Below are positions 19,188 through 31,986 of a stretch of DNA of 32,436 nt, one piece after another (the first letter of the stretch is position 1; each line of letters opens with the position of its first letter). The stretch covers positions 1 to 32,436 of the forward strand of contig JAUHWH010000004.1 in NCBI GenBank assembly GCA_030424715.1, given 5' to 3'. The translations under genes and the position numbers were made by a program. The notes under the pieces are model-generated. The model searched no databases. It worked only from the letters and a program-made list of their open reading frames with translations, and had not been told where the DNA came from. The stretch is from Bdellovibrionia bacterium (GTDB lineage Bacteria > Bdellovibrionota > Bdellovibrionia > Bdellovibrionales > JAGQZY01).

Positions 19188-19784
19188 CTACTGCAGTCCT
19201 TTCACATAGTCGCACATTGAAATATCGTCTTCAAAGTCCATGCCGGGTGTGTCTGTCATTTTAAAAACACAGGTGTCATAACCTTGCGAAACAAGCTCAT
19301 CGTTTAAAGTTTTATAGTCGGCTGGGTTCAGTTGCTCTGTTTTTGCAAGAATCCATCCGTAATTGTAAGTGGGGTGGCCAACGATTGCGATATCGTAGTC
19401 TTTCGAGATATAGAGCGTCCAATAATCACCAGCGGCCTCCCAGATCCAGCCGCCAAAATTCACAAAAGTCACTTCAAGGGTTGAGTTCAGCCCGTAGTCT
19501 TGGTTGACCCGGGCTCGGGCCTCTCTCGACACTCGTTTTCCATTCTTTTCATCACAACTGTTGACCACTTTAACCAGCCCATCTGGAAGGATCGAGTATT
19601 CTGCCGTGGCATTACCTATGCAGTTGTTTTGGAAGCTAGCGGGGATGGTGGCGTGTTGATGCCACAACCCTTGGTACTTGACCAGGTCTAAATCGGGTAA
19701 GGGCATTGGCTTTCGTGGTGCATTCATCGCTAACAACAAGGGTGCCGAAAAGAGCAAAATAAAAGCGGTGATAAATTGTGGCAT
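19188..19784 (-). CDS. Exported lipocalin (Blc-like)
   Basis: The ATG at 19784 is chosen with GGAG eight bases upstream; the in-frame TTG one codon earlier is less likely. The product is 198 aa. A signal peptide (1-19) ends at LLLA/MNA; there is no lipobox, unlike E. coli Blc, which is a lipoprotein. The lipocalin motif Y.GLW (37-41) begins the barrel, followed by NCIGNATAEYSILPDGLVKVVNSC (54-77). The closing strand pair DYWTLYISKDYDIAIVGHPTYNYGWILAKT (120-149) matches the bacterial lipocalin pattern. Lipocalins bind fatty acids or lysolipids, and bacterial and plastid forms are tied to membrane stress. It follows the chrR-type gene by 12 bases, so it is probably released by the same sigma factor. 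Confidence 0.88.
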   Translation of the reverse strand: MPQFITAFILLFSAPLLLAMNAPRKPMPLPDLDLVKYQGLWHQHATIPASFQNNCIGNATAEYSILPDGLVKVVNSCDEKNGKRVSREARARVNQDYGLNSTLEVTFVNFGGWIWEAAGDYWTLYISKDYDIAIVGHPTYNYGWILAKTEQLNPADYKTLNDELVSQGYDTCVFKMTDTPGMDFEDDISMCDYVKGLQ

Positions 19785-19796
19785 CAAAAAGTCTCC

Positions 19797-20477
19797 TTAA
19801 AAAATGGTTTTGAAAAAAAGTTTACGAAACGGATTTAAAACTCTAGGCAGACCTTCACTAAAAACGAAAGGCCCTTCCAGAGAGACCAGCAACAAGCAGC
19901 CATCGGGATCATCCGTGTAAGGATGGTGCGAGTCCTCAACGCCAAAGCAAGCAAAGTCACCGGTGACATAATCAGAATGTTGGTCTCTAAAGCTGCCGGC
20001 AACAACATAAGCGTATTCGTTACCGTCGTGGGAGTGCTGGGCTATCTTGGCACCCGCCTCAAAGTGGACAAAATAGAGGTTACTAGTTCCGGCAATGTTC
20101 ACTTTCGAGTAACTGATTGAGCCAAGACGTCTCCAAGATGTCATAAACCGCTCAGCCTTTTGCAGAGCTTTAGGTAGCAAGACCTTTTTGTTTTTGAACG
20201 ACAAAGTTCTTGATGACGTGACGACTTGAGGGGACGCAGGAGAATCACTCTGACTAAGGATTCGATCTTGAATCTTCGATAAATCAGGCCGCACACCGTC
20301 GTTAATCAGGGGTGCCGAAGACATCTCCTCGGCCAATCGCTTTTCTGTCTGCTCTAACCGTGAACAGCAGTGGGCACAATCTTGCGAGTGAGCGCTTACG
20401 AGTATCGCCAGGTGATCATCCAGGTGGCCTGAGGCAAACTCCGTCAGTACAGCGTCGCAGGGGTGCTTGGTAGTCAT
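19797..20477 (-). CDS. chrR: ChrR-type zinc anti-sigma factor with cupin domain
   Basis: 226 aa. Residues 1 to about 85 are a zinc anti-sigma domain: His 5, His 30, Cys 34 and Cys 37 reproduce the spacing of the Rhodobacter sphaeroides ChrR zinc ligands (His 6, His 31, Cys 35, Cys 38). Residues about 110-210 are a cupin. His 148, His 150, Glu 154 and His 184 match the second metal site of ChrR (His 141, His 143, Glu 147, His 177), within QHSHDGNEYAYVVAGSF. In the known system the zinc domain sequesters the ECF sigma factor, and singlet oxygen or organic hydroperoxides trigger release through the cupin. The start overlaps the sigma stop by four bases (ATGA), as expected for stoichiometric synthesis. 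Singlet-oxygen sensing here is inferred from complete ligand conservation. Confidence 0.93.
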   Translation of the reverse strand: MTTKHPCDAVLTEFASGHLDDHLAILVSAHSQDCAHCCSRLEQTEKRLAEEMSSAPLINDGVRPDLSKIQDRILSQSDSPASPQVVTSSRTLSFKNKKVLLPKALQKAERFMTSWRRLGSISYSKVNIAGTSNLYFVHFEAGAKIAQHSHDGNEYAYVVAGSFRDQHSDYVTGDFACFGVEDSHHPYTDDPDGCLLLVSLEGPFVFSEGLPRVLNPFRKLFFKTIF

Positions 20478-21088
20478 AAGCCCTCCATAAAATGATTTAA
20501 CTTGCGAATCGCCAGTCGGATGCGGGATTTTACGGTGCCCAGCGGAATTTGCCGAGATTGGGAATATTCTTCTTGAGTCAGACCCGAGAAGTAAACTTGC
20601 TTGATTGCATCTTTCTGGCTTACAGAAAGTCGGTCCACAAATCTGTGCAATTCTTGTTTTTCCTGGGAGGTTTCGATATCGGCATTGGGGTCGACGACTT
20701 TTTGGGCCAGAGTTGAATAGAGGTCCTCCGATGAGAGAGCTCTGGCATCGCGTGCCGACTTTCGCAAAAGATCAAAGCGAACGTTGCGGGAGAGGGTGAA
20801 TATCCATGTTTTCGCCTCGCCTTTATCGGCCTGAAAAAGATGAGCTTTAAACCACACCCGGCTCATGACTTCTTGCACTAGGTCTTTCGATTGAGCCGAA
20901 GTGAGACCATTGGAGACACCATAACTGTAGACTTTGGGGGCAAAAGTTTCAAAGATCTTGTTGAATGAGCTTTGACAACGGGCTCTGGCCACCTTTGATA
21001 ATAGTTCTGTGTGGTTGTCATTTTCCACGATGAGGAACCGCCTTCGATAGGGTCTTTTCAGTTCTCTAACATTAGCAGCCATTAGCAT
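20474..21088 (-). CDS. rpoE: ECF-family RNA polymerase sigma factor (RpoE of RpoE-ChrR type)
   Basis: 204 aa. Region 2 (about residues 38-110) contains SSFNKIFETFAPKVYSYG, the DLVQEVMSRVW core-binding motif and WIFTLSRNVRFDLLRK for the -10 element. Region 4 (about 137-202) has LHRFVDRLSVSQKDAIKQVYFSGLTQEEYSQ followed by IPLGTVKSRIRLAIRKL for the -35 element. GGAGG lies ten bases before the chosen ATG (21088). Pairing with a ChrR-type anti-sigma places it in the ECF group responding to photo-oxidative stress. It starts a leftward four-gene operon and sits back to back with the photolyase operon, so it probably transcribes both. Promoter motifs of the Rhodobacter TGATCC type are not evident in the intergenic region, so the recognised sequence may differ here. 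Confidence 0.92.
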   Translation of the reverse strand: MLMAANVRELKRPYRRRFLIVENDNHTELLSKVARARCQSSFNKIFETFAPKVYSYGVSNGLTSAQSKDLVQEVMSRVWFKAHLFQADKGEAKTWIFTLSRNVRFDLLRKSARDARALSSEDLYSTLAQKVVDPNADIETSQEKQELHRFVDRLSVSQKDAIKQVYFSGLTQEEYSQSRQIPLGTVKSRIRLAIRKLNHFMEGL

Positions 21089-22075: not shown

Positions 22076-22618
22076 TTGAACAACGGCGTCGCACTGTCCT
22101 CAGAAAATATTGTTCTTAATGCTGTTGGCTTTCAGCTTTCTTGGTGGGGTATTGCCCTGTACAAAGAAAAGGCTATTCTTCCGGTGTTAATCTTGGTTTG
22201 CTTCCACTTGTTATTTTTGAAAAAAAGACGAAAAGAAGAGGCCTTTTTTATTGTTGGCGTTGCCTTGCTGGGAGTCTGCATGGACTCTTTTCTGTTTGAC
22301 CTGGGTATTTTTCGATTTGAGCAATCTCTGGTCGCTTCGTCTCCCATAGTGCCTCTTTGGCTTATCACCTTGTGGCTTGCTTTTGCGACGACCCTCAATC
22401 ATTGTCTTGCTTGGTTGTTTAAAAACCCGAGAGTCACATTTCTGGCCGGTGGTGCGGGAGGGGCTCTAAGTTATGTTGGCGCAGCTCGCTTAGGGACGCT
22501 GGAAATGCCTATGCCTTTACTAGTGAGTGTTCCCCTTTTGTTTATGCTATGGGGTGTGTTTTTAAGCCTGGTACGGCCCGCGTCTGATTATTTGAAGGTG
22601 AGAGGAGCGACTTCATGA
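22076..22618 (+). CDS. DUF2878-like integral membrane protein
   Basis: 180 aa from a TTG start supported by GAGG eight bases upstream. Hydrophobic segments are seen at about residues 32-50, 55-75, 88-112, 122-140 and 145-168. The pattern NAVGFQLSWWG near the start, MDSFLFDLGIF in the middle, then P(I/L)WLITLWLAFATTLNHCLAWL and GGAGGALSYVGAARLG, matches my recollection of DUF2878. These proteins often sit beside photolyase and ChrR-regulated genes in marine gammaproteobacteria. It lies 30 bases after the SnoaL gene and overlaps the photolyase by four bases (ATGA). Biochemical function unknown; inner membrane. Confidence 0.75.
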   Translation: MNNGVALSSENIVLNAVGFQLSWWGIALYKEKAILPVLILVCFHLLFLKKRRKEEAFFIVGVALLGVCMDSFLFDLGIFRFEQSLVASSPIVPLWLITLWLAFATTLNHCLAWLFKNPRVTFLAGGAGGALSYVGAARLGTLEMPMPLLVSVPLLFMLWGVFLSLVRPASDYLKVRGATS

Positions 22619-24027
22619 AAAAGTATTCTCGCGGCCTGGTTTGGCTACGTCGTGATCTGCGTTTACAGGACAACCGAGCGGTAAGCCGAGCGACCCACGA
22701 GTGTGACGAAGTGGTTCCTGTCTTTGTTTTTGACCGGAAAATTTTAGATAAACTCGGTAACCGAGAAGACAAGCGCATAACATTTCTGCACGAAACCCTC
22801 GCCGAGCTGGACGAGGAGTTGCAAGAGATGGAGTCATCACTGGTGGTTCGCCAAGGCGACCCTGTAGAGGAGATCCCAGCTGTACTGCAAGCCCTTGATT
22901 GCGACGTGTTGTATTTCAACGAGGATTATGAACCCTATGCTAAGCAGCGAGATCCCAAGGTCTGCGAACGGATTCAGAAAGAGGGCGCCAAGGTTTTCTC
23001 TTTCAAGGACCATGTGATTTTTTCGGGTGCGCAAGTATTAAAATCTGACGGCGACCCCTATCAAGTGTTTACACCCTACAAAAACACCTGGCTCAAAAAG
23101 GCTGAGGCCAAAGACTTTGAGGCTGAGAAGTTTAAAAAGAATTTTGTGAGCCGTCAAAAAGCCAAGAAGGTCTCCCAAAGCCCGACTTTGAAAGATTTAG
23201 GATTTGAAAAAGCCGAGCTCCCCCTTGATTTTCAGAAACCCGGGCGCAAACAAGCGCTCAAGAGGCTGAAGGCCTTTGCCAAAAAAATGAGCCAATATCA
23301 AGATGAAAGAGATTTTCCAGCTCTAGAAATGGGCACCTCAGGCCTTTCTGTGCATTTGCGATTTGGCACTCTGTCGATTCGAGAGTGTTTTAGGGAGTGC
23401 CGTTCTCAGAACAGCAAGGGGGCTCGGGTTTGGCAGTCAGAATTGATCTGGCGCGATTTCTATCAGATGATTCTGGATCAGTATCCTCATGTTGCGAAAA
23501 AGGCATTCAAAGAAAAATACGCCAGTATCAAATGGAAGGGCAGCAAGAGTCACTTCGAGGCTTGGTGCGAAGGCCGAACGGGCTTTCCCATTGTCGACGC
23601 AGGAATGCGGCAACTTAATGAAACAGGGTGGATGCACAATCGCGTGCGGATGATTACGGCCTGCTTTTTAGTCAAAGATCTGTTGGTCGACTGGAAAAAA
23701 GGAGAAGCCTACTTCGCCGAGAAGCTGTTGGACTTCGACTTGGCATCAAACAACGGAGGCTGGCAGTGGAGTGCGTCTACGGGATGTGATGCCCAGCCTT
23801 ACTTTCGAATCTTCAACCCGTCCTCGCAATCGGAACGTTTTGATAAAGACGGAGAGTACATCAAAGAATGGATCCCGGAGCTTAAAGATGCCGAGGTGAA
23901 AGATCTGCACAAGCCGGAGTCGGCTCGATTGGACTGGGGGACGGAGTATCCGGCACCGATCATTGTCCATAGCGAACAAAGGGACAAGGCTTTGGCTTTA
24001 TTCAAAGGAGCCAAGGATGGGAAGTGA
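22615..24027 (+). CDS. phr: Deoxyribodipyrimidine photolyase (class I CPD photolyase/cryptochrome family)
   Basis: 470 aa, full length. The N-terminal antenna-binding Rossmann domain starts at LVWLRRDLRLQDNRAV (8-23), the photolyase signature, and spans about 1-135. The C-terminal FAD domain contains GTSGLSVHLRFGTLSIRE, WQSELIWRDFYQMIL, RTGFPIVDAGMRQLNETGWMHNRVRM and the signature LDFDLASNNGGWQWSASTGCDAQPYFRIFNP, with the WQW tryptophan involved in electron transfer to FAD. The enzyme repairs cyclobutane pyrimidine dimers using blue/near-UV light. Photolyase genes are classical targets of RpoE-ChrR, and this one sits in the divergent operon. It overlaps both neighbours (4 bases upstream, 11 bases downstream). 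CPD rather than (6-4) specificity is the likely call but not proven from sequence. Confidence 0.94.
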   Translation: MKKYSRGLVWLRRDLRLQDNRAVSRATHECDEVVPVFVFDRKILDKLGNREDKRITFLHETLAELDEELQEMESSLVVRQGDPVEEIPAVLQALDCDVLYFNEDYEPYAKQRDPKVCERIQKEGAKVFSFKDHVIFSGAQVLKSDGDPYQVFTPYKNTWLKKAEAKDFEAEKFKKNFVSRQKAKKVSQSPTLKDLGFEKAELPLDFQKPGRKQALKRLKAFAKKMSQYQDERDFPALEMGTSGLSVHLRFGTLSIRECFRECRSQNSKGARVWQSELIWRDFYQMILDQYPHVAKKAFKEKYASIKWKGSKSHFEAWCEGRTGFPIVDAGMRQLNETGWMHNRVRMITACFLVKDLLVDWKKGEAYFAEKLLDFDLASNNGGWQWSASTGCDAQPYFRIFNPSSQSERFDKDGEYIKEWIPELKDAEVKDLHKPESARLDWGTEYPAPIIVHSEQRDKALALFKGAKDGK

Positions 24028-25306
24028 CGAAAACACTGTGACGAAAAATCGCACCACGGCTCTGCTAAAAATGGCGACGAAGGTGGCGCTGCGAGAAGGT
24101 AAAAGCTTTTTTGAGAAAAAAGCGGAACAACAGTTAGCGAAAATGTTGGACCAAGCGGACGTGATAGTGAAGCAAGTGGGGCAATTAAAAGGAGCGGCGA
24201 TGAAGGCTGTGCAAATGGTGTCTGTGGAAGCACAAGACCTGCTACCGCCCGAGGTACTACAAGTCCTGGAGAAATTGCAATCCCAAGCCCCGCCACTGTC
24301 AAACGAGGTTATGATTGAGGAGTTGCGATCCGAGCTGGGCCCGCAGCGTTTCTCGGAAATAAAAAATCTATCAAGCCAGCCCATCGCATCTGCGAGCATT
24401 GGACAGGTCTATCGGGGTGATATCGACGGGCAAAGTGTGGTGATAAAAATTCAGTATCCGGGTGTCGCCGACAGTGTTGATCAGGACCTCAGGATATTGA
24501 AAAAGTTGGTGCAGGCGCTATTGGTTTTGGCGCGTAAAAGAATTGATATGGACGCCTTGTTTGTCGAAATGAAGCGGGTTCTTAAGCTCGAGACCAACTA
24601 TCTCAATGAGGTCGAGCAACTTCTCAAATACAAGGCCTTTTTCCAAGGCGAGACCCAGTATAAAATCCCAGAGGTTTACCCCGAGTTGTCCACCAGTAAG
24701 GTTATTGTTTTAAGTAACGAAGAGGGATTGGAGTTCACCGACTGGTTGAAGACCAATCCGTCGCTCGCGATGCGAGAGACCATAGGCATTTCCCTTCTTA
24801 ATCTTTACATGGAAGAATTCTTTAAAAATCAGTTGGTCCAAACCGACCCCAACCCGGCCAACTTTTTGATTAACCACCAGAATCAACTGGTGTTGTTGGA
24901 TTTTGGTGCGACCATTTCGTATTCCGATGAATTTGTGACCGATTACAAGGCATTGTTGCGCACCGTCTTCAGTGGCAGTGACGATGAAATTCTTCAGAAA
25001 ATTCAAACTTTGGGCTTTGTTTCTCCGAAAGAGACCGACGAGGTGAAAAATGACTTCGTCCAATTTATCAAGCTTTCCTTGTTGCCATTCTCCGAAGATT
25101 TACAGCCCTTCGACTTTGGTTCAGAGGAGTATCCGGAGCAGGTTCGAGAAACCGTCCTTAGTTTTTCAAAAAAGCTAAAGCACTCGGCGCCACCGAGCAA
25201 CATTATTTTTTTGCATAGAAAGCTCGGAGGCATCTTTCAGATGCTGAGAAAGCTAGGCGTTAAAATTGATATCACCCCGTACCGAGATATGATTTTGAAG
25301 AATTGA
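24017..25306 (+). CDS. ABC1/AarF (UbiB/COQ8/ABC1K) atypical kinase family protein
   Basis: The ATG at 24017 is chosen because AGGAG lies six bases upstream; it overlaps the photolyase by 11 bases. The product is 429 aa. Family motifs are in order. The KxGQ-like helix region is LKGAAMKAVQMVS (57-69). The alanine-rich nucleotide loop is IASASIGQVYRG (123-134). The VIKIQYPG strand carries Lys 144, the catalytic-loop counterpart QTDPNPANFL has Asp 277 and Asn 282, and the metal-binding DFG is at 295-297. The KxGQ motif reads K63-A-V-Q66, with valine for the usual glycine. No transmembrane anchor is evident. ABC1 proteins support ubiquinone or other prenyl-lipid metabolism; UbiB-type E. coli proteins are longer, with C-terminal membrane helices. 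Context with lipid-protection genes suggests a role in quinone or lipid homeostasis under oxidative stress rather than core ubiquinone synthesis. Confidence 0.9.
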   Translation: MGSDENTVTKNRTTALLKMATKVALREGKSFFEKKAEQQLAKMLDQADVIVKQVGQLKGAAMKAVQMVSVEAQDLLPPEVLQVLEKLQSQAPPLSNEVMIEELRSELGPQRFSEIKNLSSQPIASASIGQVYRGDIDGQSVVIKIQYPGVADSVDQDLRILKKLVQALLVLARKRIDMDALFVEMKRVLKLETNYLNEVEQLLKYKAFFQGETQYKIPEVYPELSTSKVIVLSNEEGLEFTDWLKTNPSLAMRETIGISLLNLYMEEFFKNQLVQTDPNPANFLINHQNQLVLLDFGATISYSDEFVTDYKALLRTVFSGSDDEILQKIQTLGFVSPKETDEVKNDFVQFIKLSLLPFSEDLQPFDFGSEEYPEQVRETVLSFSKKLKHSAPPSNIIFLHRKLGGIFQMLRKLGVKIDITPYRDMILKN

Positions 25307-25345: not shown

Positions 25346-25900
25346 ATGAGTTTAACGTCCATTTTTTACAAAACAGCCTTGGTTACATTGGTTGTCTTAA
25401 CAGGAGGCATTGTGAGTGCAACAACAATACAAGATCAGAAAATAGAAGACATTGGTGGCAAGTCCATGAGCCTGGCGGACTACAAAGGTAAAGTGGTTCT
25501 GCTGGTCAATATCGCCACAAAGTGCGGATACACGCCTCAGCTTAAGGGGTTAGAGGCGCTTTATCAAAAGCACAAAGATCAAGGCCTGGTGGTTGTGGGG
25601 ATCCCGAGCAATGACTTTGGTGGTCAGACTCCCGAAGATGAAAAAGGTGTGAAAAAGTTTTGCCTTCTTAATTACGGAGTGACTTTTCCGCTGACCAGTA
25701 AGACCGTCGTTAAGGGAGAAAACAAGCACCCATTGATTGCGAGTTTGGTGAAGGCCTCGAGCGATGCCAAAGAAATCGGCTGGAATTTTGAAAAATTCTT
25801 GATCGGAAAAGACGGCCAACTGGTACAACGTTATGGCTCATCTGTTAAACCTGACGACCAAAATCTGGAAAAGCAAATCACGACGTTGCTTGCTAAGTAA
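25346..25900 (+). CDS. Exported glutathione peroxidase (cysteine type)
   Basis: 184 aa with AAGGAG before the ATG. Residues 1-25 form a signal peptide (hydrophobic core ALVTLVVLTGGIVSA), unlike the cytoplasmic BtuE-type enzymes. The catalytic tetrad is recognisable: Cys 60 in NIATKCGYTPQ (where animal enzymes have selenocysteine), Gln 94 in FGGQTPED, and Trp 146/Asn 147 in WNFEKFL. Two further cysteines sit away from the active site only as KKFC, so thioredoxin- or glutathione-type resolution cannot be told. The enzyme reduces hydrogen and lipid hydroperoxides, here in the periplasm. It follows the ABC1 kinase gene by 39 bases and probably belongs to the same stress-induced run. Confidence 0.92.
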   Translation: MSLTSIFYKTALVTLVVLTGGIVSATTIQDQKIEDIGGKSMSLADYKGKVVLLVNIATKCGYTPQLKGLEALYQKHKDQGLVVVGIPSNDFGGQTPEDEKGVKKFCLLNYGVTFPLTSKTVVKGENKHPLIASLVKASSDAKEIGWNFEKFLIGKDGQLVQRYGSSVKPDDQNLEKQITTLLAK

Positions 25901-25936: not shown

Positions 25937-26719
25937 ATGGAACTCAACGGGAAAAACATTCTAATATCCGGAGCCAATCGAGGCATTGGTTTGGCCCTAG
26001 CTAAAAAAGCCGCTTCTTCTATGATGAACGTTCATCTACTTTGCCGCACCCGCGATCCCGGGGTAGAGGCGGAGCTTAAAAAACTGGGAGCTTCCCTTGT
26101 CAAGTCTTGGAGCCTTGATCTCAGCGACCCTAAAAATATTGAGGCTTTTGCCGCAGAGTTTGAAAAGTCCGACTTCACTTGTGATGTTTTGGTTAACAAT
26201 GCTGGACAACTCACGGGCGGGCTTGTTGAAGAGCAGGACATTCAAAAAGTCTATCAGATGTTTCAGGTGAATCTTGTCGGTTTGATCGACCTCACCAAAC
26301 GAATGTTGCCAGGGATGCTAAAATTGCCTGAGGCGAAGGTTGTTAACAATGCATCGGTCTCTGGCTTGATGTATTTACCATGTGCTAGTACCTACGCCGC
26401 TAGCAAAGCGGGAGTCATCGCGTTTACCGAGTCGTTGCGTAACGAGTTGGAGGGGACTTCTGTTTCAACACTAACAATGATCACTCCCGGAGTGAAAACG
26501 AGGATGTACGATGAGATCCCCGACCTTTACTCGGGACACCTCGATTTAAAATTTTTGTCGTCAATTCCGGCTGACGAGTGGGTTGAAGAAGTCTTCCGTT
26601 GTATGAAAAAGGACATTGCTGTTTGTTGGCCGTCGGGGCAGTCGTTTTTGGGAGTCAAACTCGGGCAGCATTTTCCGGGACTTCTCAGTCGGATGGTTCG
26701 TCCTTATTTTAAAAGGTGA
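25937..26719 (+). CDS. Short-chain dehydrogenase/reductase
   Basis: 260 aa, classical SDR length. The nucleotide-binding motif SGANRGIG (11-18) and NNAG (87-90) are present. The catalytic Ser lies in NNASVSG (Ser 140 or Ser 142), followed by Tyr 153 and Lys 157 in STYAASKAG, with Asn 112 in QVNLVG completing the tetrad. The C-terminus GQHFPGLLSRMVRPYFKR is typical of SDRs acting on acyl or hydrophobic substrates, often membrane-associated. It starts 36 bases after gpx with AAGGAAGG as ribosome-binding site, and the next gene starts one base after its stop. SDR genes recur in ChrR-regulated clusters. Substrate unknown. Confidence 0.92.
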   Translation: MELNGKNILISGANRGIGLALAKKAASSMMNVHLLCRTRDPGVEAELKKLGASLVKSWSLDLSDPKNIEAFAAEFEKSDFTCDVLVNNAGQLTGGLVEEQDIQKVYQMFQVNLVGLIDLTKRMLPGMLKLPEAKVVNNASVSGLMYLPCASTYAASKAGVIAFTESLRNELEGTSVSTLTMITPGVKTRMYDEIPDLYSGHLDLKFLSSIPADEWVEEVFRCMKKDIAVCWPSGQSFLGVKLGQHFPGLLSRMVRPYFKR

Positions 26720-27580: not shown

Positions 27581-27701
27581 TTCTTGCCGCACAATCTCAT
27601 AGACCCCAACGCGGTCCGCTGCCTCCCCCCTGGGAACGACGCATCCCTTGCCACTGGCTTCTTGATTGATAACAATGAGGCATCATCAAAAGGGGGATTG
27701 C

Positions 27702-28385
27702 ATGAAAAATATATTTTTAATTTTAGGAATTGGTTTTTTAACTATCACGGCACAAGCGGCCGATGTGACTGCTTTGAAACAGGAGATCACTGTTCTCGCC
27801 AAAGCCAACACCACCAACGTTAGTGCTCAGTCCGAAGTGCGAAAAGATTTGGACAATCTCATTAGCGAGTTGACCGCCTCGCAGCCTGAAGTGACGGAGC
27901 AGCAGTGGGTCAAGTTTTCCCCGGGCAGTTGGAGACAAATCTGGTCTGACGAAGCTGACAATTCCCCAGCGGGTTCACCGAGTCGCAACCTCGATAAAAT
28001 ATTTCAGTATGTTTCCAACGCAGGGCGTGCGGTGAACTTTGGAGAACGAAGACTTCCCAATGGCGTCACTGTAACCTTCGCTCTTGAAGCTGTGGGAGCT
28101 GTCAGTGGAAACAAGCAAAACACCAAAATATTAAAAGGCTTTAGCCGCAATCAGGGCCTGGTCAGCGGAGAGTATATTAGCCAACTGGCGACCAGTATTT
28201 TAGAAGGCGACCTTGGTGAGTTCGAACCGGCCAAATTAGGAGAGTTTCCCAAAGGGCCGATCAATGCGGAAAGCGATTTAACCATTCTTTATCTCGATGA
28301 CGATTTGAAGATTGGCACAGCTCCAAACGTCTACACCGGTGCCATTGAGCTTTTTGTTCTCGAGCGGGTGATATCCGTTCAGTAA
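27702..28385 (+). CDS. Exported PAP/fibrillin-like protein
   Basis: The ATG at 27702 is chosen because AGGGGG lies upstream and MKNIFLILGIGFLTITAQA begins a signal peptide; an earlier ATG in frame has no such support. The product is 227 aa. Residues 44-62 (EVRKDLDNLISELTASQP) followed by a W-containing strand (VKFSPGSWRQIWSDE) resemble the opening of plastid-lipid-associated (PAP/fibrillin) domains. The C-terminal SDLTILYLDDDLKIGTAPN (191-209) matches their conserved 'D.TYLDDDLRIGR..N' end. The fold is a lipocalin-like barrel that binds lipids. In plants and cyanobacteria these proteins coat plastoglobules or protect photosynthetic membranes. Here it would act in the periplasm. Call rests on end motifs and domain shape. 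Confidence 0.68.
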   Translation: MKNIFLILGIGFLTITAQAADVTALKQEITVLAKANTTNVSAQSEVRKDLDNLISELTASQPEVTEQQWVKFSPGSWRQIWSDEADNSPAGSPSRNLDKIFQYVSNAGRAVNFGERRLPNGVTVTFALEAVGAVSGNKQNTKILKGFSRNQGLVSGEYISQLATSILEGDLGEFEPAKLGEFPKGPINAESDLTILYLDDDLKIGTAPNVYTGAIELFVLERVISVQ

Positions 28386-28420
28386 AATAGAGAATTTCAG
28401 AATCACGGAGGAGGATGGAT

Positions 28421-29878
28421 ATGAAGCCGATCAATTTTTTTTTGGTCCTTGTTTTTTGGGGTTCTTGTGCATGGTCAAAGGCCAGCCTTAGCCCCGCCTT
28501 ACAGCAGAGTTTAAGCTCCAGCGAGACCAGTGATATTGTCATCTATTTAAAGACAAAGGCTGATCTAAAATCAGCCTTTGCTATTTTGGATCGAACCTCG
28601 CGCGTCGCCCATGTTGTCGAAAAACTTTTAGATGCGTCGGAGTCATCGCAAAAGCCGATCCTGCAGTTTTTGGAGACTCGCGGATTTAAGGCTCGCGGTT
28701 TTGTCTCCACCAATGCGATTGCTGTGTCAAAGGTACCGTCAAATTTAGTCCAGCGGTTGTCGCGATTCTCCGCGGTTCGCAGCATTGGGTTGGATGTTCG
28801 ATCTAAACTCAATCTTCCTTTTCCGTTTCCGGAATCTCCAGAAGAAGAAAAAAAAGTGATAGGGATACCTTCTCACCTCTCTCGCATCAAAGTGGATCGA
28901 GTGTGGAATGAACTTAAAGTCAGAGGCGAAGGGATCGTCATAGCTGGGCAAGACACCGGTTACTTTTGGAAGCACAAAGCTCTGCAAGACAAGTACCGAG
29001 GCTTTAACCAGGGGTTTGTCGATCATAATTACAATTGGCACGACGGTATCGTGGGGGCGCCCTGTTCCCCCGGAGGCGCTGAGCCTTGCGACGACAAGGA
29101 CCACGGAACTCACACCATGGGCTCTATTGTGGGTGACGACGGTCAAGGCAATCAAATTGGCGTGGCGCCGGGAGCTCAGTGGATCGGGTGTCGCAATATG
29201 CAAAAAGGTGTGGGGACGGTTTCTAGTTATCTCGAGTGCTTTGACTTTTTTCTTGCGCCTTTTCCGATCAATGGCAGCGTTGCAAAAAATGGACGACCTG
29301 ACTTGGCTCCTCATATTTTAAACAATTCGTGGAGCTGCCCTAAAAGCGAAGGCTGTGTTGGCGATGAGTTTTTGAATGTGGTGCAAGCCTACAAAGCCGC
29401 CGGGATTCTATTGGTGGCAGCAGCCGGCAACGATGGGCCCAGTTGCGGAACAGCCAGTAATCAGCCGGCCAGTTTTGCGGGAGATGTACTGGTTGTTGGT
29501 GCCTGGAATTCGTATATCAACGAAATCGCCTTTTTCTCTGGCGTCGGGCCATCACCCTTTAAGAAACAGTTGGCGCCCAACGTGATTGCAGTGGGCACTG
29601 GCGTGAAGTCCTCCATGGCGTCTGGCCCCAATGATTACGACGACAAAGCGGGCACATCGATGGCCTCACCACAGGTGGCTGGAGTTGTGGCTTTGCTCTG
29701 GTCCTATAAACCCGAACTGATTGGTCAAATTGACGCCACTCTTGATGTGATACAGAGAACGGCAGACCCCATCCGAGCCAGTCAAACTTGCGGCGCTTTT
29801 TCAGGCGGCAGTATTCCCAACGCCGTCTACGGCTATGGAATGGTTAATGCCTACAGGGCTTTGACTGAGAAACTTTGA
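28421..29878 (+). CDS. Secreted S8 subtilisin-like serine protease
   Basis: The ATG at 28421 is chosen because GGAGGAGG sits six bases upstream; the in-frame ATG at 28415 directly abuts it. The product is 485 aa. Signal peptide: residues 1-21. Residues about 22-130 are an inhibitor-like propeptide (IVIYLKTKADL..., FKARGFVSTNAIAVSKVPSNLVQRLSRF). The catalytic domain has Asp 178 in AGQDTG, His 228 in DHGTHTMGS and Ser 413 in GTSMASPQVAG. The oxyanion Asn is Asn 337 in AAAGNDGP (or the Asn pair at 301-302). Several cysteines (CSPGG..PC, WSC..EGC, SCGT) suggest disulfides typical of extracellular forms. Resembles bacillopeptidase F-type subtilases. It begins 35 bases after the fibrillin-like gene; the following gene is another subtilase. 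Confidence 0.92.
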   Translation: MKPINFFLVLVFWGSCAWSKASLSPALQQSLSSSETSDIVIYLKTKADLKSAFAILDRTSRVAHVVEKLLDASESSQKPILQFLETRGFKARGFVSTNAIAVSKVPSNLVQRLSRFSAVRSIGLDVRSKLNLPFPFPESPEEEKKVIGIPSHLSRIKVDRVWNELKVRGEGIVIAGQDTGYFWKHKALQDKYRGFNQGFVDHNYNWHDGIVGAPCSPGGAEPCDDKDHGTHTMGSIVGDDGQGNQIGVAPGAQWIGCRNMQKGVGTVSSYLECFDFFLAPFPINGSVAKNGRPDLAPHILNNSWSCPKSEGCVGDEFLNVVQAYKAAGILLVAAAGNDGPSCGTASNQPASFAGDVLVVGAWNSYINEIAFFSGVGPSPFKKQLAPNVIAVGTGVKSSMASGPNDYDDKAGTSMASPQVAGVVALLWSYKPELIGQIDATLDVIQRTADPIRASQTCGAFSGGSIPNAVYGYGMVNAYRALTEKL

Positions 29879-29931: not shown

Positions 29932-31986
29932 ATGCAAAGATTTTTAATCACTCTTGTTTTAATTTTGGGAGTTTCCGTTGCTTTAGCACAAGTGCCGGCT
30001 CCGGCTGACACCTCTCATCCGGGTAACGAGACAGCGGTTCTCTCCTTTGAACGCTTTGAAATAAAAGAGTTGGGTCGGACCTCACCACTTTATCTCCCCA
30101 AGCGAACCGATGGTAAAAAGGTTCCGCTGGTGGTTTTTGGACATGGGCAAGCCTTGAATGAAACTCACTACGACAAAACCCTAGAGCATTTGGCAAAGAA
30201 AGGTGTCGCAGCCCTTTTTCCAAAATTTGATGATGGTTTTTTTGATCAAAATTGGCGGCGAATGGCCGACGACTGGAACGCTATAACAAAAGCGGCTTTG
30301 AAGGAGTATGGAATTCGTGTTGACGCCAAACATGTTGTCTACAGTGGGCATTCCAAAGGTGGCTATGTCGGGTTGATGGCCATGGGGGCCCCAAGCCAGC
30401 CGGCCGTTGATAGTGGGGTGTTTTTTGCTCCCGCAGGCTATGACTCGGAGTATTTACAGAATCTTGAGGACGACGTCGAGGTCACTTTAGTTTGGGGCGA
30501 GAAAGACTCCGTCATTGAAAAAAGTGCGGTTATGGAGATCTACAACGCCCTTACCGTTGAGAACAAGCAGTTCATCGAAGTGCTGAGCTACAACAACCGA
30601 GAGGCCGATCACTATTTCCCACAAAATAAGTCGACATTTTTTGGAGGTAAAAATGGTGTGAGTGCTTTTCATCATCATGGCGTCTGGCAATGGTTGGTAG
30701 CGGCAGCCTGGGATGTTGAAAATGGAGGAGATGCGCTGCAGCCCTATCTGTATGGTGAAAAGGCTGGAGTCAGTGGGCAACCAGGTTTAAAGCACAAGGT
30801 CCAGCGCAGTTGGTCGCCTCGCTTTGAGGCTCTTATAAAGCCAACGGATGCCAATAGCTTTTTAACAACCACCGGGCGCAATTTAGTCCTTAGCGAAGTG
30901 GGGTGGGGTTGGTATAAAGCCATTTTATCGGAGCAGATCTTCCAGCGACTTCAGCGCTCTAAGGATGTTCAATATGTTGGTCGCAACCATGAGTTGAAAT
31001 TGCTGTTAGAGCCCAATGACTTGGATCCGAGGCAGTGGGCGTTTAAAAATCCTTTGGGCTTTGACGTTTCCGCCCCTGGGGCTTGGGATCTTGTTTCCAC
31101 CGCAGAAGAGGTTGTGGTGGCCGTGATAGATTCTGGGATTCAGTGGAAGCATTCGGACCTTCGAGACAATCTTTGGATCAACCAAGCCGAAGCAGAGGGG
31201 CAGGCGGGTGTTGACGACGATAACAATGGCTATATTGATGATGTTAAGGGCTTTCACTTTCTTTTGAACAATGGAGAATCCAACGATAGCCGAGGTCATG
31301 GCACCATGGTCAGTGGAATGATTGGAGCCGTTGGAAACAACGGACGTGGTATCACGGGAATGGCCTGGAACGTGAAGTTGATGTCTTTAAATATGTTTCC
31401 CAATTTGTGGGGAAATGCCACTCTAGAGGCAGCGGTTAAAGCTGTGCACTACGCTGTTGATAACAAGGCAGACATTATTAACGCCTCTTTTGGCCAAGCC
31501 GATGAAGACTTGGTGCCGGATGACGGCTTCAAGATCTTTATCGAGGCCCTGGAGAGGGCGGAAAAGGCGGGGATACCCGTGATTGCGGCGGCTGGCAACA
31601 GCTCGGGCAACAACGACAAGACGGGGATGATTCCGGCCACATTGGGACTAAGCAATATCATTTCTGTAGGGGCTATGAATCGTAAGGGGGAAAAGTGGGC
31701 GAAAACAAATTACGGTAAAAACAGTGTGCATGTGATGGCCCCAGGTGAAGAGATTCTTACGACCCACACCAGTGGCACCCGCAGCCCTTCGGGGACATCT
31801 TTAAGCGCTCCTATCGTCACAGGTATTGTGGCCTTGATGTTGGATAAAAATCCCGACCTCACCTTAGCTCAAATCAAAGATATTTTGCTGAACTCATGTG
31901 ATGCCCATCCTCCGTTGGCAGAACTGAGCCTTTGCGGCGGATACATCAATGCGGCTAAGGCTGTGGAGGCGGCCAACCTTAAGTAA
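29932..31986 (+). CDS. Secreted alpha/beta-hydrolase fused to an S8 subtilase
   Basis: 684 aa with AAGGAG before the ATG. Signal peptide: residues 1-19 (cleavage ALA/Q). Residues about 40-260 form an alpha/beta-hydrolase of the dienelactone hydrolase/chlorophyllase-like type. Oxyanion strand VVFGHGQ is at 67-73, nucleophile elbow GHSKG has Ser 141, WGEKDSVI has probable acid Asp 192, and ADHYF has probable His 227. Residues about 360-684 form an S8 protease: Asp 400 in AVIDSG, His 456 in RGHGT, Asn 556 in AAAGNSS and Ser 623 in GTSLSAP. The joining segment (280-390) carries a subtilase lead-in (PNDLDPRQWAFKN...APGAWDL). Both triads look intact, so two serine hydrolases appear joined in one exported chain. 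The hydrolase sits where a protease propeptide usually is. Whether the parts are separated by processing is not visible. Confidence 0.88.
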   Translation: MQRFLITLVLILGVSVALAQVPAPADTSHPGNETAVLSFERFEIKELGRTSPLYLPKRTDGKKVPLVVFGHGQALNETHYDKTLEHLAKKGVAALFPKFDDGFFDQNWRRMADDWNAITKAALKEYGIRVDAKHVVYSGHSKGGYVGLMAMGAPSQPAVDSGVFFAPAGYDSEYLQNLEDDVEVTLVWGEKDSVIEKSAVMEIYNALTVENKQFIEVLSYNNREADHYFPQNKSTFFGGKNGVSAFHHHGVWQWLVAAAWDVENGGDALQPYLYGEKAGVSGQPGLKHKVQRSWSPRFEALIKPTDANSFLTTTGRNLVLSEVGWGWYKAILSEQIFQRLQRSKDVQYVGRNHELKLLLEPNDLDPRQWAFKNPLGFDVSAPGAWDLVSTAEEVVVAVIDSGIQWKHSDLRDNLWINQAEAEGQAGVDDDNNGYIDDVKGFHFLLNNGESNDSRGHGTMVSGMIGAVGNNGRGITGMAWNVKLMSLNMFPNLWGNATLEAAVKAVHYAVDNKADIINASFGQADEDLVPDDGFKIFIEALERAEKAGIPVIAAAGNSSGNNDKTGMIPATLGLSNIISVGAMNRKGEKWAKTNYGKNSVHVMAPGEEILTTHTSGTRSPSGTSLSAPIVTGIVALMLDKNPDLTLAQIKDILLNSCDAHPPLAELSLCGGYINAAKAVEAANLK

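Follow-up and report, generated by a model that had tools for sequence, protein, structure and literature searches.

Fibrillins, the plastid-lipid-associated, lipid-binding proteins that carry a PAP domain, are known from chloroplasts and cyanobacteria and are described as proteins of photosynthetic organisms (PMC11580037, PMC8793873). The 32,436-nucleotide stretch of Bdellovibrionia DNA analysed here, called the window, comes from a relative of predatory bacteria and contains an open reading frame that raises the question of what a fibrillin with a bacterial signal peptide would do in such a cell. Searches of an open-licence library, whose entries were taken mostly at the level of titles and the first lines of abstracts, turned up no account of a fibrillin from Bdellovibrionota or from any other heterotrophic bacterium. 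An automatic annotation of the Bdellovibrionota homologues as PAP/fibrillin may well exist. The reading frame starts with an ATG at 27702, immediately preceded by a G-rich ribosome site, and its stop codon ends at 28385. An alternative in-frame TTG at 27666 would give a longer product; the ATG is favoured because it agrees with both the ribosome site and the signal peptide. Homologues are present at 50% identity in two genomes of its family and, more remotely, across the phylum, so the frame is more than chance. It is real and correctly placed. The features of the gene and its product are as follows.

27702..28385, plus strand: PAP/fibrillin-family protein of 227 amino acids, probably exported (reading frame, ribosome site, PF04755, homologues, predicted fold, profile)
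27702..27758, plus strand: signal peptide, residues 1–19, predicted cleavage after AQA (sequence, rule, low pLDDT at 1–14)
27759..27917, plus strand: N-terminal helical part, residues 20–72 (predicted secondary structure)
27924..28367, plus strand: eight-stranded lipocalin-like barrel, residues 75–222 (predicted fold, fold searches)
27924..27932, plus strand: G-x-W of lipocalin motif 1, residues 75–77 (G75 and W77 invariant in alignments A1 and A2)
28290..28316, plus strand: C-terminal YLDDDLKIG motif (D199 and I204 invariant in A1 and A2)

The initial annotation had called the product a PAP/fibrillin-like protein and expected a lipocalin-like barrel. In a Pfam scan the sole family above its curated score was PAP_fibrillin (PF04755), which reached 26.5 bits over residues 38–205 (E 7.4e-6; the gathering score is 22). 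The NCBIfam scan gave no match, and neither did a PDB search with the single sequence. We then used a profile built from an alignment of 13 relatives including the window protein (A1), which has no plant or cyanobacterial rows. In the PDB this profile found rice fibrillin 5 (9jwr, E 1.9e-7; 9kaf, E 2.2e-7), and its matches there were fibrillins, with no lipocalin among them. Two features described for fibrillins (PMC5507956), lipocalin motif 1 with its G-x-W towards the N-terminal side of the domain and a conserved C-terminal Asp, are common to the window protein and cyanobacterial fibrillins, as seen in the alignment used for structure prediction (A2). That alignment comprises the window protein and seven homologues, two of which are cyanobacterial fibrillins. 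The AlphaFold2 model obtained from it has a pLDDT of 83.3 and a pTM of 0.81, with low pLDDT at residues 1–14. The eight predicted strands at residues 75–222 form the barrel that had been anticipated. The profile search did not point to another family, nor did the model lack a barrel.

A lipocalin-like barrel could in principle resemble fibrillins through convergence or through general calycin kinship. Many lipocalins match the predicted model at Z 9–11, the Pfam score is modest, and five of the ten relatives scanned (L081, L082, L083, L053 and L055) fall below the PF04755 gathering score. However, Foldseek placed rice fibrillin 5 first (E 5e-9), and a second aligner gave 9jwr_A a Z score of 16.0 over 174 residues (rmsd 3.2, approximately 20% identity), with the match taking in the N-terminal helices as well. 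This is 5 Z units over the best lipocalin, the second-ranked entry, a retinol-binding protein (Z 10.9). No Pfam lipocalin model matched the window protein at a nominal limit of E 10, although HMMER's filters discard most matches with E values over roughly 0.1. Together with the fibrillin-specific profile matches and the common motifs, these results leave convergence or mere calycin kinship disfavoured and, in our judgement, very improbable. Membership of the 27702–28385 protein in the fibrillin family is well supported.

The N-terminus of the window protein reads M-K, then a hydrophobic stretch, then AQA/AD. By rule and by eye this is a Sec-type signal, with n-, h- and c-regions and an A-x-A cleavage site, in agreement with the bacterial signal peptide noted at the outset. 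The rule requires positive charge, a hydrophobic window and small residues at −3 and −1. It is passed by 33 of the 35 Bdellovibrionota homologues described below, and the other two (L077 and L063) are signal-like by eye; only one of 43 cyanobacterial fibrillins passes it. The rule is loose, since 141 of 336 neighbouring reading frames of at least 150 amino acids (42%) also pass. The cleavage site has no cysteine, hence no lipobox, and the window protein does not look like a lipoprotein. In one homologue (L081, 7518–8636, genome G265), the fibrillin-like domain lies C-terminal to a Fasciclin domain within one protein. Fasciclin domains are usually extracytoplasmic, and this fusion agrees with an extracytoplasmic protein. 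Judged from the sequences, the homologues are likely exported. These observations bear on a second reading, in which the protein coats intracellular lipid droplets, the role that fibrillins have on plastoglobules and cyanoglobules. The family and the fold are those expected of such a coat, and plant fibrillins are located on plastoglobules (PMC11580037). Against this stand the signal-like N-termini found throughout the clade and nearly absent from the cyanobacterial set, as well as the Fasciclin fusion, and we regard a droplet coat as improbable.

How widely is this protein distributed? The A1 profile matches 35 of 368 genomes of Bdellovibrionota; these are spread patchily over 17 of the 181 genera. 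PF04755 itself was found once in the window genome, in 9 of 147 close relatives, in 30 of 79 sampled genomes of the cyanobacterial group and, among 14 control genomes, only in Synechococcus elongatus. The named relatives in the genome collection are two cyanobacteria and five MAGs assigned to Bdellovibrionia, Bdellovibrionales, Oligoflexia or Bacteriovoracaceae. The host had been described as a proteobacterium; the Bdellovibrionia/Oligoflexia group is now usually classed outside Proteobacteria, and that part of the description has to be corrected. None of the 89 stretches of viral contigs that fitted a pattern encodes a relative. In an unrooted tree of the 35 Bdellovibrionota sequences and 43 distinct cyanobacterial rows (out of 45 hits, and drawn from sampled genomes and two named loci), the two groups are separated by a branch with 99/95 support. 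Two genomes from a different family (f16) are among the nearest kin of the window protein in this tree, a placement that suggests transfer of the gene within Bdellovibrionota.

The context genes of the fibrillin gene in the window are listed here.

19188..19787, minus strand: Lipocalin_2 protein
19797..20477, minus strand: ChrR anti-sigma factor (TIGR02451, 131 bits, cut-off 124.5)
20474..21088, minus strand: ECF sigma factor (family match; a response shared with the fibrillin is presumed)
22615..24027, plus strand: DNA photolyase
24020..25306, plus strand: ABC1 atypical kinase-like protein
25346..25900, plus strand: glutathione peroxidase with an N-terminal hydrophobic stretch
25937..26719, plus strand: short-chain dehydrogenase

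Upstream of the fibrillin gene on the plus strand are genes for a SnoaL-like protein, a DUF2878 protein, the photolyase, the ABC1 protein, the glutathione peroxidase and the short-chain dehydrogenase. The ChrR gene, which scores above its model's cut-off and has an ECF sigma gene alongside, forms a pair with it 6.6 kb from the fibrillin gene. ChrR systems respond to singlet oxygen, and an ECF–ChrR pair is the known switch for that response (PMC6852236); in Shewanella, photolyase, short-chain dehydrogenase and periplasmic glutathione peroxidase genes all belong to the RpoE2–ChrR regulon (PMC4336711). The sigma–ChrR pair at 19797–21088 has around it genes for lipocalin, photolyase, glutathione peroxidase, DUF2878 and SnoaL proteins and a TIGR01777 oxidoreductase, and this part of a Bdellovibrionota genome is likely an island for photo-oxidative stress. 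The fibrillin gene is no more than a putative member of the set, with a gap of some 120 bases in front of it. No ECF11-type TGATC motif was found near the gene, and this motif may not be the one used in the phylum; a window-wide scan for motifs of the type gave one hit, at 2364, where chance gives a mean of 2.89. The regions upstream of the fibrillin genes share no promoter dyads beyond those of shuffled sequences. The sigma-70-like site before the fibrillin gene belongs to a set of 6, against a chance expectation of 6.9.

Elsewhere in the window, a subtilase gene (28415–29878) follows the fibrillin gene. Directly after it, a 684-amino-acid reading frame (29932–31986) has weak alpha/beta-hydrolase matches (residues 53–235) and a subtilase domain (residues 393–659), an unusual pairing. 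At the other end, 6–2164 holds a low-complexity stretch followed by a protein with, by eye, a tail-fibre type chaperone-like end; the probable explanation is an out-of-frame reading of a collagen-like repeat protein.

We asked which of these neighbours recur across the 35 genomes. The initial annotation had placed the gene next to lipocalin and ABC1 genes. That placement needs correcting. In the window, the ABC1 gene is 2.4 kb upstream and separated from the fibrillin gene by four others, and it lies within 5 kb in that genome only (1/35). A plastoglobule-like ABC1–fibrillin pairing is thus ruled out as a conserved neighbourhood. The lipocalin gene is not adjacent, being 7.9 kb away on the other strand, and it is ruled out as a conserved neighbour with 0/35 genomes within 5 kb. 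A member of the photolyase/cryptochrome family, by comparison, lies within 5 kb in 7/35 genomes (G032, G302, G000, G163, G184, G239 and G244), where uniform placement gives an expectation of 0.36 (P 6e-8). These seven genomes, that of the window among them, span six lineages. Since the proximity test was conceived only after a photolyase had been seen in the window, the window genome does not count as independent evidence, which leaves six others, two of them in one genus. The types of neighbour include a CPD-photolyase-like protein (window), DPRP-type proteins and, below the model's cut-off, a short protein whose closest type is cryptochrome DASH. Most fibrillin copies have neighbours other than photolyase.

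Other genes near the fibrillin recur as well. A CarH-like MerR–B12 regulator, below the CarH model's cut-off in both cases, lies directly before the fibrillin gene at L061 (6908–10211) and, across two intervening genes, at L066 (5724–8696). At these two loci, which belong to two lineages, the regulator is near both the fibrillin gene and a photolyase-family gene. A SOUL haem-binding gene lies within 5 kb in 3/35 genomes; SOUL4 is located in plastoglobules together with fibrillins (PMC7006542). Pirin genes occur three times among the nearest reading frames. A blind Pfam count over these frames (132 of 134 scanned, omitting one very long frame of L064 and one short frame of L085) gave six efflux proteins, four short-chain dehydrogenases and three each of SOUL, photolyase, pirin and DNA polymerase III.

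At the level of whole genomes, the photolyase family is present in 34/35 genomes with fibrillin versus 240/333 without (Fisher P 4e-4, uncorrected for relatedness), and the sole fibrillin-carrying genome without it is 64% complete. Within genus g108, the mean number of photolyase genes is 3.5 in the 10 genomes with fibrillin versus 1.6 in the 16 without, one genome with no listed photolyase match being entered as zero. The phytoene synthase family shows no association with fibrillin (12/35 versus 108/333 genomes), and for this reason a carotenoid ligand is not supported by co-occurrence. A Cupin_7 protein, mostly with two cupin matches, co-occurs with fibrillin (12/35 versus 17/333 at E 1e-12 or better, a threshold chosen after the list was seen); we claim no role for it. 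In one genome (G236:C7:754160-756509, L135), a SOUL gene adjoins a two-cupin Cupin_7 gene approximately 13–16 kb from the fibrillin gene.

With the family and the neighbours in place, a lipid-binding role in the periplasm, as first suggested, is reasonable given the PAP_fibrillin domain, the signal peptide and the predicted lipocalin-like barrel. On balance, we lean towards the view that the protein is a periplasmic carrier of hydrophobic molecules acting against light and oxidative damage; we infer the location, the ligand and the response to light. The signal peptide would send the protein across the inner membrane and then be cleaved, and with no lipobox the protein would work in soluble form in the periplasm. 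The mature protein would consist of a helical N-terminus and an eight-stranded calycin barrel, as in rice fibrillin 5. A calycin barrel holding a hydrophobic molecule has been proposed for plant fibrillins (PMC5507956), and by analogy with them, the barrel here might hold a prenyl quinone, an oxidised fatty acid or lipid, or a tetrapyrrole such as haem or a porphyrin breakdown product. The bound molecule would be kept safe or moved, and the carrier would in this way help to defend the cell against oxidation of its envelope driven by light.

Whether light is the relevant stress across the branch is a separate matter. As a tentative proposal, the exported fibrillin branch as a whole may serve defence against light and singlet oxygen in non-photosynthetic bacteria. 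Some lineages would have it wired to CarH-type sensors and photolyase-family genes, with the SOUL haem protein as a partner, and photoprotection by fibrillins would either predate thylakoids and plastoglobules or not depend on them. The exported protein may instead be unrelated to light and carry lipids in the periplasm more generally, to maintain the envelope or to process what is acquired from prey. Consistent with this, 28/35 genomes have their photolyase-family gene more than 5 kb away or lack one, including all five of genus g15 (0/5), families of outer-membrane efflux proteins and prolyl oligopeptidases are among the counted neighbours, and two subtilases come after the window gene. However, photolyase, CarH-like and SOUL genes are found near the fibrillin gene repeatedly and in distinct lineages, and a gene present in only 35/368 genomes is more in keeping with a niche trait than with basic upkeep. 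We consider a carrier unrelated to light rather unlikely.

For most plant fibrillins, the function remains unknown (PMC8793873). The Bdellovibrionota protein, from a coherent exported branch, is a small and usually single-copy bacterial fibrillin that is open to deletion, and in which the ligand and light protection are testable in the absence of plastids, and a bacterial system of this kind could make fibrillin function testable.

The closest known counterpart is rice fibrillin 5 (9jwr; 9kaf is a fibrillin 5 homologue), which is like the window protein in its fold, in sequence kinship across the domain, in the G-x-W and in the C-terminal Asp. Unlike the window protein with its bacterial signal peptide, fibrillin 5 of plants carries a transit peptide for the plastid, and it works together with solanesyl-diphosphate synthase to make plastoquinone (PMC5507956). 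Cyanobacterial fibrillins have the PF04755 domain and the motifs of the Bdellovibrionota branch but differ in the absence of a signal peptide (42/43 by rule) and in their place on the other side of the tree. Lipocalins such as retinol-binding protein (1aqb) and bacterial Lipocalin_2 also form an eight-stranded barrel; they differ in their lower fold score and in that no Pfam lipocalin model matches the window protein. For the putative regulation, the nearest likeness is the Sigma-E/ChrR (ECF11) response of Rhodobacter, Shewanella and Vibrio. Published accounts of it, in the parts available, mention no fibrillin, and its promoter motif was not found near the window gene, but the window shares with it the sigma–ChrR pair, the photolyase, the glutathione peroxidase and the short-chain dehydrogenase.
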